Assembly (NCBI GenBank): GCA_900758955.1
Contig: CAAETL010000135.1
Span: 1 to 5,800 of the forward strand
Length of the DNA stretch: 5,800 bases
DNA from: an uncultured Oscillospiraceae bacterium
GTDB lineage: Bacteria; Bacillota; Clostridia; Oscillospirales; Oscillospiraceae
Direction of reading: 5' to 3'
Shown here: positions 1 through 3,452 of the stretch, piece after piece
How the letters are laid out: each line of letters starts with the position of its first letter
Position numbering within the stretch: position 1 is the stretch's first letter
Translations under genes and position numbers: made by a program
The notes under the pieces: model-generated
Database searches by the model: none
Told to the model about the DNA's origin: nothing
Seen by the model: only the letters and a program-made list of their open reading frames with translations

Positions 1-386
1 GTATCCCGCCACACACAGCGCCAGTAAACGCCGGACAAGCCGATTGATTCCTGGCTGGTAATCAGGACCGGGGTAACTTCCGGCGCGGAATAGACATTGC
101 CGAAGAACAGGATCATGGCGTGCGCAGAGGCGGAAACATCCTCCTCCGTCATGCGATAGCCCTCGGTCAGTTCAATTTGGGACTGTTGGTTGCGAAACAG
201 GTCCAAAGCTCGAAAGAAATCGAGGTTTTGAGATAATACCAGGGAGACGTCCGCATTTTCCTTCTGCATCATTTCATTTTCCAACTGATGGTCTAAAATG
301 AAGAAGGCAAGAGGGGGCATGAATGCGCTCAACATCAGCAGAAGCAGGGTGAATAGTATGGCGGCGATTGTCCAAACCCGGGTCAT
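1..386 (-). CDS. Membrane-anchored protein of unknown function, third gene of a two-component operon (3' end outside window)
   Basis: The frame opens with an ATG at 386-384 that overlaps the stop of the histidine kinase gene (ATGA), preceded by a GAGGAGG-type ribosome binding site, and stays open for 128 codons to the window edge, so the C-terminus is missing. The protein starts MTRVWTIAAILF and has one strongly hydrophobic segment at about residues 4-31 after a short basic N-terminus, so it is probably a membrane anchor or uncleaved signal with the rest outside the cell. No lipoprotein Cys is seen just after the hydrophobic stretch. Residues 32-80 are polar and probably helical (LENEMMQKENADVS); residues 88-128 look more like a beta-rich extracytoplasmic domain. 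I do not recognise the family. The tight coupling to the kinase suggests an accessory protein that modulates or is co-regulated with the sensor; this is inference from position only. Confidence 0.85.
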   Translation of the reverse strand, partial: MTRVWTIAAILFTLLLLMLSAFMPPLAFFILDHQLENEMMQKENADVSLVLSQNLDFFRALDLFRNQQSQIELTEGYRMTEEDVSASAHAMILFFGNVYSAPEVTPVLITSQESIGLSGVYWRCVWRD

Positions 387-1783
387 GGTCTGCCTCCTCT
401 CAGTTCGACGATCACGGTAGTCCCCTGCTCCAGTTGGCTTTCAAACCGGATGCTGCCGTGATGCAGCGCGGCGATCTCCCGGCACAGGGACAGGCCGAGG
501 CCTACGCCTCCCTGCTCCCGGGCCCGGGACGTGTCCACCCGATAAAAGGCCTCGGTGAGATGCTCCAGCGCGGCGGGAGGTATTCCCCGTCCTGTGTCCT
601 GTACGGCGATGCGGCAGCCGTCGGGCAGCATCGCCGAGCAGACCGTGATCTGCCCGCCTCGCCCAGCCATGGCCTTGCGGGCGTTATCCCACAAGTTGGT
701 GAGCAGTGATTTGATCAGGTCAGGTTCCAGCAGGCAGGTTCCTTCCTCACAGTCGCAGGCCGTGGTGATGCCGTGCTGCTGGTAGAGCGGCGCCAGGTGC
801 GCGGCCAGCCCCTGGATCAGCGCGGCGGGTTGAACGGGGATCAGGACGATGGCGTTTCTCTGTAAAACTAAAATATCCAGCAGCTTCTGGGATAAGTTTT
901 CCAGCCGCTTTCCCTCGGAGACGATGTAGTTTGCCGCTTCGATCTGCTCCTCTTCGCTCAGGGTTTGCCCCCGAATCAGGTCAGCGTAGCCGATGATGGA
1001 GGTCATGGGCGTTTTGGCTTCATGGGCAAAGCTCCCCATAAAGCGCTCCTGGCGCTCCACAGAATTTTTTAGTTGGGAAATGTTTTCTTCCAACGTCTCC
1101 GCCATGACGTTAAAATCACGGGCCAACAGGCCCACTTCGTCTTGGCCGCTGACTTGGGCGCGACTGGAGAGATCCCCGGTGGCTATGGCGCGGGAGGCCT
1201 GGGAAAGACGCACCAGGGGATTGGTCAAAAATCGGGCGATGCTGTAGGAGAGCAGGGCGCATAGCGCGGCCATCAGCAGAAACACCCATAGATAGGTTTG
1301 CTGCTGCATCCGTCTTGTTTCAAAGAGCGGGGTGACGTCCCGGACCATGTCCAAATACAGAGTTTCCTTCCCCGCCTCCAAGGTCCCCGCCAGGACCAGG
1401 GTATGTCCGGCTTGTCCCAGGGAGAGGTAACGAATGGTGCAGCTGCCGGGCTGCACCGATTGGGCCAGCCGTTCCGGCAATGGGGAACCGTACTCATAAA
1501 TTTGTTCGGTCATGGTATACAGTCGCAGCGCTTTCCAGGACTGCGTGTTCTGGCCCGATAGCTGCTCCAACGTGCGGGAGAGATCGGCATAATTGGAGAG
1601 ACCGTTCATGCTGTTCAGGATTTGCAGGGTGCCCAGCACCATCTGGTAGGCGTTAAACAGCGCGTCTTGCTCCCGTTCCAGTGAGTTGCGGTATGAAGTG
1701 GAGAGCAGGAGGCTGCCGCCCACCCCAAAGAGTACGGAGAGCAGGCCCAGCATACAGAGGGTGATTTTCAGGCAAAACTTCAT
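383..1783 (-). CDS. Two-component sensor histidine kinase (HAMP, HisKA, HATPase)
   Basis: A 466-residue membrane histidine kinase that autophosphorylates and passes phosphate to the regulator encoded just upstream. Order of parts: membrane helix 1 at about 6-28, extracytoplasmic sensor region about 29-163, membrane helix 2 about 164-186, HAMP linker about 187-239, and a dimerisation/phosphotransfer domain with the H-box SFAHEAKTP in which H254 is the phosphoacceptor. The ATPase domain has an N-box (N363, N367 in LTNLWDNARK), G1 box DTGRG at 396-400, an F-box region FYRVD at about 414-418, and G2 box GGVGLGLSL starting at G425. All catalytic motifs are intact, so it should be active. The start ATG (1783-1781) overlaps the regulator stop as ATGA, with GAGGT about 6 bases upstream inside the regulator gene. 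The sensor region matches no family I can name, so the signal is unknown. Confidence 0.95.
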   Translation of the reverse strand: MKFCLKITLCMLGLLSVLFGVGGSLLLSTSYRNSLEREQDALFNAYQMVLGTLQILNSMNGLSNYADLSRTLEQLSGQNTQSWKALRLYTMTEQIYEYGSPLPERLAQSVQPGSCTIRYLSLGQAGHTLVLAGTLEAGKETLYLDMVRDVTPLFETRRMQQQTYLWVFLLMAALCALLSYSIARFLTNPLVRLSQASRAIATGDLSSRAQVSGQDEVGLLARDFNVMAETLEENISQLKNSVERQERFMGSFAHEAKTPMTSIIGYADLIRGQTLSEEEQIEAANYIVSEGKRLENLSQKLLDILVLQRNAIVLIPVQPAALIQGLAAHLAPLYQQHGITTACDCEEGTCLLEPDLIKSLLTNLWDNARKAMAGRGGQITVCSAMLPDGCRIAVQDTGRGIPPAALEHLTEAFYRVDTSRAREQGGVGLGLSLCREIAALHHGSIRFESQLEQGTTVIVELRGGRP

Positions 1784-2439
1784 GGGGTGACCTCAAGGCG
1801 ATAGCCAACCTTGTTAACCGCTTGCAGCTGATGCTCCCAGCCGACCTTTTTGCGCAGGCGCTGCACGTGTAGATCCACGGTTTTGCTGCCAAACTGGTAT
1901 TCTTCTCCCCACACCCGTTCATAGATGGTCTCCCGAAAGAGGGCCCGTCTGGGATTTTGGGCGAACAGGAGAAGAAGATCATATTCCTTTTTTGTCAGAT
2001 TAATCACCTTATCGTCCCGCCACACCTGCATGGCGTATGTATCAATTTTCAGGCCGCCAATGAGCAACACCGCCGCGTTTTTCTGGTACCGGCGCAGCAC
2101 CACGTCTACCCGCGCCAGCAGCTCCACAATTTCAAATGGCTTCACGATATAGTCCTCAGCGCCGGCCCGGAGGCCCTTGACCTTGTCTGTTACCGTATTT
2201 TTGGCTGTGATAAAAATAACCGGTATTTCCATGGGACGGATGTATTCCATCAGTTCCAAACCGTCAATTTTGGGTAACATAATATCCAGTAGAACCAAAT
2301 CGTAATGATTTTTCTCCAACAGATCAGCGGCTTGCGCGCCGTCATGGGCGACAGTGCAGGAATAGCCCTCTTTGGCGAGGCTCAGGCGGATCAGATTGGA
2401 GATGGCGTGTTCATCCTCCACGATCAAAATCTCTAGCAT
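1780..2439 (-). CDS. OmpR/PhoB-family response regulator
   Basis: A 219-residue DNA-binding response regulator. The N-terminal receiver domain (about 1-118) has the acidic pair E8/D9, the phosphoacceptor D52 in LVLLDIMLP, the switch residue T78 in FITAK, Y97 and the conserved K100 in VKPF. The C-terminal winged-helix DNA-binding domain (about 125-217) has the usual OmpR-type features, including LTKKEYDLL, the recognition-helix region KTVDLHVQRLRKKVG and the wing motif VGYRLE. The open frame extends upstream to 2643, but the ATG at 2439 is chosen because the receiver domain starts there (MLEILIVEDE) and AAGGAGG sits 6 bases before it; the upstream extension runs through a promoter-like sequence and terminator hairpins. 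The stop overlaps the kinase start, so the two proteins are probably translated together. Target genes cannot be read from the sequence; autoregulation of the operon is a common arrangement but unproven here. Confidence 0.96.
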   Translation of the reverse strand: MLEILIVEDEHAISNLIRLSLAKEGYSCTVAHDGAQAADLLEKNHYDLVLLDIMLPKIDGLELMEYIRPMEIPVIFITAKNTVTDKVKGLRAGAEDYIVKPFEIVELLARVDVVLRRYQKNAAVLLIGGLKIDTYAMQVWRDDKVINLTKKEYDLLLLFAQNPRRALFRETIYERVWGEEYQFGSKTVDLHVQRLRKKVGWEHQLQAVNKVGYRLEVTP

Positions 2440-2503: not shown

Positions 2504-2528
2504 AGATTCCGTCGCAGCCATGCCAATA

Positions 2529-2557
2529 GAAAACGCCGTCCGGAGAATCCGGGCGGC
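2529..2557 (-). terminator. Terminator-like hairpin just upstream of the two-component promoter
   Basis: Bases 2535-2544 and 2548-2557 form a GC-rich 10-position stem (GCCGTCCGGA/TCCGGGCGGC on the plus strand) with one non-Watson-Crick position and a GAA loop. Read on the minus strand the hairpin is followed by GTTTTC, a short U-run. It would stop leftward read-through from the DUF1292/6S region into the two-component operon. Because of the mismatch and short U-run it is weaker than the neighbouring terminator. Confidence 0.45.
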
Positions 2558-2564
2558 ATAAAAA

Positions 2565-2668: not shown

Positions 2669-2863
2669 AAAAGTGCCCCGCTTTAGCCGTGCCAGCCCAA
2701 TTAAAACCTGCACGTAATTGGCAGGTGGGTTGCCTCCATCTCGCTTCTTTGCTTCCAACTTCCAACCAAAAGGCCGGGAGGCCTGCAATCCACGAAATGA
2801 GTTAGCGTCCCGTTGAAGAAATGTGGGTTTAAAAGGGCCAGGTCACGCACCAAGCAGGGCGAT
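2669..2863 (-). ncRNA. ssrS: Candidate 6S RNA
   Basis: This gene-free stretch folds by eye into a 6S-like rod about 195 bases long. Closing helix, outside to inside: GCCCTGCTT (2860-2852) with AAGCGGGGC (2683-2675), 9 pairs; an internal loop; GTG (2846-2844) with CAC (2691-2689); CTGGCCC (2841-2835) with GGGCTGG (2698-2692); TTAAA (2832-2828) with TTTAA (2705-2701); then CC with GG. A large central bubble follows. Its 3' strand contains a small hairpin, ACCTGC (2726-2721) with GCAGGT (2711-2706). Beyond the bubble are CTCATTTCG (2801-2793) with CGAGATGGAG (2743-2734, one bulge) and an apical hairpin AGGCC/GGCCT (2784-2771). The 3' end runs into ACTTTTG. 6S RNA mimics an open promoter and sequesters vegetative RNA polymerase. 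I did not recognise it by primary sequence; the call rests on fold, length and position. No convincing promoter lies directly upstream, so it may be processed from the DUF1292 transcript. Ends are approximate. Confidence 0.66.
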
Positions 2864-3200: not shown

Positions 3201-3229
3201 ATTGTACCCCGCGGTCCAATAAAAAGCAA
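3201..3229 (-). promoter_or_regulatory. Promoter of the DUF1292 gene (and possibly the 6S-like RNA)
   Basis: On the minus strand TTGCTT (3229-3224), a 17-base spacer and TACAAT (3206-3201) give a near-consensus vegetative promoter (4/6 and 5/6). Transcription would start near 3194, leaving a leader of about 28 bases that holds the ribosome binding site. This promoter rules out translation from the upstream ATG at 3229. Confidence 0.7.
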
Positions 3230-3283: not shown

Positions 3284-3311
3284 TAGACAAATCGGGAAGG
3301 TGTGTTATAAT
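3284..3311 (+). promoter_or_regulatory. Extended -10 promoter of the penicillin-binding-protein gene
   Basis: TAGACA (3284-3289, 5/6 of consensus), a 16-base spacer and a perfect TATAAT (3306-3311) preceded by the extended -10 motif TGT (3303-3305). Transcription would begin near 3318, within the palindrome ACACGTGT at 3315-3322. This implies a leader of roughly 135 bases before the TTG start. Confidence 0.75.
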
Positions 3312-3317
3312 AAGACA

Positions 3318-3452
3318 CGTGTACAAATTTTGATTTTGGATGGATTTTAGTCCAAATGCGTCGTGTTTCGACGAGACGACGACTCCTGATCTCAATGGTA
3401 CCAACCTACTGCCGCTAACCATTCCTGCGTTAGGACTCACGGAGGTGTTTTT
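3318..3452 (+). promoter_or_regulatory. Structured 5' leader of the penicillin-binding-protein mRNA
   Basis: Successive potential hairpins fill the leader: TTTGGA/TCCAAA (3335-3340 with 3351-3356), CGTCGT/ACGACG (3359-3364 with 3376-3381), AATGGT/ACCATT (3394-3399 with 3418-3423) and TCCT/AGGA just after. The ribosome binding site GGAGG is at 3441-3445, 7 bases before TTG. CTCC at 3383-3386 could pair with GGAG of the ribosome binding site. I match it to no riboswitch class; T-box and cyclic-di-AMP signatures are absent. Whether the leader is regulatory is uncertain. Confidence 0.35.

Follow-up and report, generated by a model that had tools for sequence, protein, structure and literature searches.

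The window analysed here (the whole stretch of DNA, 5,800 nt) carries genes for a DUF1292 protein, a response regulator and a histidine kinase on the minus strand and for a penicillin-binding protein on the plus strand, together with an RNA element that is very probably a 6S RNA (Table 1). The 6S match starts 3 nt past the DUF1292 stop codon and lies between the DUF1292 and response regulator genes, where an earlier reading of the sequence alone had placed an RNA between a DUF1292 gene and two-component genes. In the region 3284-3452 there is also a divergent, plus-strand promoter-like site (TAGACA-16-TATAAT, 11/12, with TG before the -10), some 140 nt before the penicillin-binding protein ORF begins; Rfam gave no match in that region.

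Table 1. Genes, RNA elements and promoter- and terminator-like sites of the window.
Feature	Position	Strand	Remarks
Histidine kinase	383-1783	-	
Response regulator	1780-2439	-	
Likely intrinsic terminator	2525..2559	-	hairpin 2559-2533, T-rich tail 2532-2525
6S RNA (very probable)	2671..2863	-	bounds are those of the Rfam RF00013 model; true 5' and 3' ends may differ
Closing stem P1, 3' arm	2676..2687	-	RNA nt 177-188
Helix P2, 3' arm	2692..2698	-	RNA nt 166-172
3'-side bubble hairpin ACCUGC/GCAGGU	2706..2726	-	2726-2721 pairs with 2711-2706
Apical (internal) arm	2727..2811	-	helices 3 to 7 of the consensus
AACCCACA, 5' side of central bubble	2822..2829	-	invariant across the 66 aligned sequences
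Predicted pRNA 5'-GUGGGUUUAAAAGGGCCAGG	2823..2842	+	computed complement
Helix P2, 5' arm	2836..2842	-	RNA nt 22-28; partner 2692-2698
Closing stem P1, 5' arm	2849..2859	-	RNA nt 5-15; partner 2676-2687
DUF1292 protein gene, 99 aa	2867..3166	-	PF06949, 55.7 bits, E 9.5e-15
Sigma-A-like promoter of DUF1292, TTGCTT-17-TACAAT	3201..3229	-	TTGCTT 3229-3224, TACAAT 3206-3201; score 9.8, p 0.018
Penicillin-binding protein, transglycosylase and transpeptidase domains	from ~3453	+	

The covariance model RF00013, which has a curated cut-off of 46.4 bits, matched the minus strand of the window from 2863 to 2671 over its full length (model positions 1-187 of 187) with 79.0 bits and an E-value of 5.8e-15, and we are confident that the RNA encoded there is a 6S RNA. 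The search with this model had been proposed along with the sequence-only guess of 6S (ssrS), which the match supports; the further option of a divergent 6S is not needed, 79 bits being a good match. The location first given (2669..2863) was right and had come without a strand, which can now be assigned as minus, and on this strand the 3' U-run that had been claimed is found as CUUUU at window 2673-2669. The claim that the stretch holds no coding gene also held up: a Pfam search (E 0.01) of the four mechanically called ORFs that overlap the 6S stretch or its ends gave no match. As to other Rfam families, the window showed just SNORD39 (E 8.4) and anti-hemB (E 8.9), both far below their cut-offs; the weak anti-hemB match overlaps the likely terminator. 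The 6S RNA described here is an additional, previously undescribed copy within a known family and not a new class.

The minus-strand fold of positions 2669-2863 has a minimum free energy of -77.9 kcal/mol, compared to a mean of -63.1 kcal/mol for shuffled sequences (z -3.58; 0/200 shuffles fold as well), and the ordered long-range pairing noted in the sequence-only reading is real. Both the window fold and the consensus of 66 sequences exhibit a closing stem, a large central bubble and an apical arm. The alignment behind this consensus of 49 pairs comprises the window and 65 relatives with matches over the RF00013 cut-off (66 sequences, 64 of them distinct). Compensatory changes are seen in 20 of the 49 consensus pairs across the 66 aligned sequences, as opposed to 7 to 11 when the pairing partners are slid; amongst the 64 distinct sequences 97.7% of paired cells can pair, compared to 88.7% in shuffles (0/500 reach the observed value) and 35 to 44% in slid structures, and 288 cells show double changes against a shuffled mean of 95 (again reached by 0/500): the structure was derived from the same alignment and the sequences are related, both of which favour it, but the gap is still wide. 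The closing-stem pairs, whose covariation among relatives had been suggested as a check, do show compensatory changes: these occur at 3 of the 11 pairs of the outer helix P1, in which 6 pairs never vary, and at 6 of the 7 pairs of the next helix P2, one of the seven positions being U-U in the window. The small hairpin on the 3' side of the bubble has 5 of its 6 pairs invariant in the 64 distinct sequences and therefore has no covariation support of its own.

This architecture of a rod with closing stem, central bubble and apical arm is shared with 6S-1 (bsrA) of Bacillus subtilis, as is the small hairpin on the 3' side of the bubble, near-invariant here, which in B. subtilis is already formed in the free RNA (PMC8876501). 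The E. coli 6S RNA forms a 9-bp 3' hairpin on release only (PMC8876501), and the 3'-side hairpin found here differs from it in this respect. Also common to both RNAs is a C for a pRNA that is initiated with G, at nt 41 here and at nt 40 in B. subtilis 6S-1, where nt 40 is the pRNA start (PMC8876501). By analogy, the pRNA start is predicted opposite C41 (window 2823). The 6S RNA would then be expected to bind the housekeeping (sigma-A) RNA polymerase as a mimic of a melted promoter and, as with B. subtilis 6S-1, to hold the polymerase back under nutrient scarcity; the polymerase would copy a short pRNA beginning with GUGGGUUUAAAAGGGCC from the 5' side of the bubble, upon which P2 would open and the 6S RNA be released. 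An opening of P2 by pRNA synthesis is to be expected from PMC8876501. As to promoter-like elements within the RNA itself, the 3' side of the bubble carries UUUUAA at 2706-2701 (a candidate -10-like element) and the apical arm two copies of UUGGAAG at 2765-2759 and 2758-2752 (candidates for a -35-like element).

A scan with the DUF1292 protein yielded 75 loci in 74 distinct genomes, including Oscillibacter, Dysosmobacter, Lawsonibacter and Flavonifractor as well as MAGs labelled Oscillospiraceae, Clostridia, Clostridiales, Firmicutes or bacterium; the most similar proteins, at 72% identity in each case, come from [Clostridium] viride and Candidatus Evtepia. An RF00013 match at E 0.001 or better was present in 72 of the 74 genomes (over the cut-off in 66), and when 18 of the 75 loci were scanned directly with cmscan, 16 gave 6S over the cut-off. 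In all 71 loci in which the 6S RNA could be placed it lies downstream of DUF1292 and shares its strand; in 70 of them the gap ranges from 1 to 302 nt (the value for L074 being unreliable). The 6S RNA closest to that of the window is found in [Clostridium] viride DSM 6836; it is 84.5% identical and follows DUF1292 at a gap of 4 nt. The genome search gave no match for L014, L033 and L047, where the contigs end 132 to 187 nt past the stop codon; a later scan of L014, which is counted among the 71, recovered a 6S RNA cut off by the contig end (41.8 bits). Scans of the loci L031 and L041 found no 6S, and the match in these genomes lies outside the locus. For L002, L003, L030, L074 and L075 the 6S position was confirmed but the match is under the RF00013 cut-off; these were excluded from the alignment, promoter and terminator counts, for which 65 loci and the window remain. 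Near the C. viride 6S locus there is also a T-box leader on the minus strand (L009:7219-7462, 98.2 bits). B. subtilis has two 6S genes (PMC8876501), whereas the relatives of the window have one match each (exactly one in each of 72/74). A single 6S match was likewise found in each of 92 genomes of the order-level draw described below, and at class level, among the matches listed, 17 of the 165 6S-positive genomes have two or more, with G229 having three, two of them on one contig some 12 kb apart.

On a wider scale, an even sample of 117 genomes was taken from the order to which C. viride belongs; a 6S match is present in 92 (73 over the cut-off with stricter filters) and DUF1292 in 112. The DUF1292 gene lies within 600 bp upstream of the 6S RNA on the same strand in 86 of the 92 6S-positive genomes; the six exceptions consist of five with the genes on different contigs and one (G147) with the genes about 1.4 kb apart. 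DUF1292 is also carried by 20 of the 25 order genomes without a 6S match, and in these the DNA behind DUF1292 was scanned with permissive filters (for G165, one of its two copies). This gave a 6S match on the DUF1292 strand in 14 of the 20, all under the cut-off at 26.3 to 43.1 bits (L136, L139-L141, L144-L147 and L149-L154), and no 6S match behind DUF1292 in the other six. These sub-threshold matches are probably divergent 6S genes, although the four with the lowest scores (E 0.035 to 0.057) are doubtful. In total, 100 of the 117 order genomes thus have a 6S or 6S-like match behind DUF1292. In one 6S-less genome a Gut-1 RNA match (RF01706, 50.2 bits, cut-off 50) was seen about 400 bases behind DUF1292 (L148:623-698).

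Promoter-like sequences were scored with weights that are general consensus values and were not fitted; for the DUF1292 promoter, p-values were taken against control DNA from the interval between the DUF1292 ATG and the 6S RNA. At p<0.05, 65 of 66 loci have a sigma-A-like element upstream of the DUF1292 ATG (51 of 66 at p<0.01), although the controls, here and for sites directly before the 6S RNA, are mostly coding DNA and so flatter AT-rich intergenic DNA, which gives more weight to the steady hexamers and the 17-nt spacing: the element reads TTGC(A/T)(A/T)-17-TANAAT in 64 loci, is slightly different in L051 and is lacking in L008. The distance from the end of the -10 to the ATG is mostly 29 to 38 nt and is larger in the others. 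Between the ATG and the 6S RNA of the window the best promoter-like score is 4.2, versus 9.8 for the DUF1292 promoter. A promoter specific to the 6S RNA in the window was not found by the promoter scans (p 0.37 just before the 6S RNA), so that with regard to small RNAs embedded in an mRNA (3' UTR-derived) a sequence scan finds no promoter-like site of the RNA's own. Downstream, a terminator-like site, consisting of a hairpin and a T-rich tail, was found within 200 nt after the 6S RNA in 62 of 63 loci, versus 12 of 315 mononucleotide shuffles, at a score limit that equals the lowest observed value and was fixed after the values were seen; the count omits 2 of the 65 loci with less than 120 nt of downstream DNA, and equal-length stretches of DUF1292 gave 0 of 63. 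The best terminator of the window lies about 110 nt beyond the 6S RNA, farther than in nearly all relatives listed. A stricter consensus scan of the window listed neither the DUF1292 promoter nor the terminator at 2525-2559. By eye, a strong GC-rich hairpin, CGCCCGTCCAC/GTGGACGGGCG, is visible on the minus strand at 2611-2635, about 36 nt past the 6S RNA and followed by TATTGCAT; it might act as a first terminator or as a signal for 3' processing.

The position next to the end of a reading frame, found in 71/71 placed relatives, would also suit a different kind of rod-like RNA, such as a cis-acting regulatory element or an extended 3' end of the DUF1292 message. We consider this very improbable in view of the full-length match to the 6S covariance model, the 6S-type architecture with its large and partly invariant bubble, the fact that RF00013 matches nowhere else at E 0.001 in the 72 genomes (of 74) that have a match, and the distinct terminator-like site downstream of the RNA. 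A location of the RNA on the plus strand, which the left-to-right order of the sequence-only description might be taken to imply and where mirror-image helices are also seen, is rejected and hardly credible at all: the plus strand has no Rfam match, its fold is reached by 25 of 200 shuffles (z -1.42), and the placed relatives all have the 6S RNA on the DUF1292 strand.

With regard to how the 6S RNA is made, the 3-nt gap and the lack of a promoter-like site in front indicate that it is likely transcribed from the DUF1292 promoter, and its near-constant position behind DUF1292 in close relatives makes one transcript likely. We thus infer, as the somewhat more probable reading, that in this lineage DUF1292 and 6S form a single transcript from which the 6S RNA is cut: transcription from the conserved DUF1292 promoter would yield a DUF1292-6S transcript whose 3' part is the 6S RNA, which a ribonuclease would then cut out. 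The 6S RNA could instead have a promoter of its own, concealed within the last part of the DUF1292 reading frame, with the neighbourhood merely reflecting inherited gene order; lactic acid bacteria also keep 6S gene order at the family level (PMC8414754). The DUF1292 reading frame of the window could contain a promoter that is weak or departs from the consensus, and promoter-like sites directly before the 6S RNA (p<0.05) are present in 9 of 23 relatives with longer gaps, including three Oscillibacter MAGs (L023, L024 and L025) that have TTGCAT-17-TACGGT. However, where the gap is 23 nt or less such sites occur in just 4 of 43 loci, with about 2 expected, and the linkage spans an order (86/92) with a conserved promoter-like site before DUF1292 (65/66), such that an own promoter appears to us a serious but rather less than probable explanation. 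The longer-gap loci do mean that cotranscription is not required everywhere; in the simplest reading, the clade shares one DUF1292-6S unit, and some lineages add a second, near promoter.

Other 6S RNAs offer points of comparison for the single-transcript reading. E. coli 6S RNA (ssrS), a member of the same family, has a far promoter and is trimmed by ribonucleases from longer precursors, which may be compared with the processing proposed here. A study of the E. coli RNA reportedly deals with the switching of sigma factors and endoribonucleases. The gene linked to it, ygfA, reportedly lies downstream, whereas the protein gene linked here lies upstream. In Clostridium acetobutylicum, which shares with the window a clostridial 6S RNA, expression is strong and three Northern bands were read as processed forms (PMC3879012); the passages on this RNA gave no statement on DUF1292 linkage. 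Together with the trimming in E. coli this means that cutting a 6S RNA from a longer RNA would not be a new principle, and its derivation from an mRNA would represent a variant of known 6S precursor processing. In B. licheniformis, BsrA is annotated as a transcript in its own right, located between aspS and yrvM (PMC3871023); here, by comparison, the 6S RNA stands 3 nt behind DUF1292 and its own promoter-like site was not found.

Of these results, only the DUF1292-6S unit across the order may be novel, and its interpretation is inferential. In the open-licence literature searched we found no link between 6S RNA and DUF1292: in the portions of text available, 6S RNA and yrzB co-occur just as unrelated table entries, 6S RNA and Faecalibacterium appear together in a report of E. 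coli 6S in stool, and 6S RNA and bicistronic lead to a Wolbachia paper in which a different operon is meant. The surveys said to be likeliest to give clostridial 6S contexts (Wehner 2014, Barrick 2005) lay outside this search, and therefore the linkage may already be in print.

As a tentative interpretation, which we hold to be quite possible yet short of probable, the 6S RNA across this order of Clostridia would be the 3' half of a coding message: one strong sigma-A promoter would give rise to both the acidic DUF1292 protein and the 6S RNA, with a ribonuclease, and not a promoter, setting the amount of active 6S RNA. A brake on the sigma-A polymerase would in this case be fed by a sigma-A promoter, as a built-in loop, with DUF1292 as partner protein and as signpost for 6S genes under the Rfam cut-off. 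The 6S RNA itself is ordinary; should the linkage have the meaning that it hints at, it would afford a simple route to divergent 6S genes under the Rfam cut-off (14/20), an example, open to testing, of a global regulator that derives from the tail end of an mRNA, and a hint, by linkage alone, at the setting of the uncharacterised DUF1292 protein. A class-wide link to DUF1292 is only partial, being found in a minority of genomes (30 of the 107 with both a 6S and a DUF1292 match, among the matches listed and as a rough figure). Also among the matches listed at class level, DUF1292 lies about 3.25 kb upstream of the 6S RNA on the same strand in G244, G271 and G364 and 4.3 kb upstream, again on the same strand, in G324: these distances look as if the linkage were looser elsewhere in the class.
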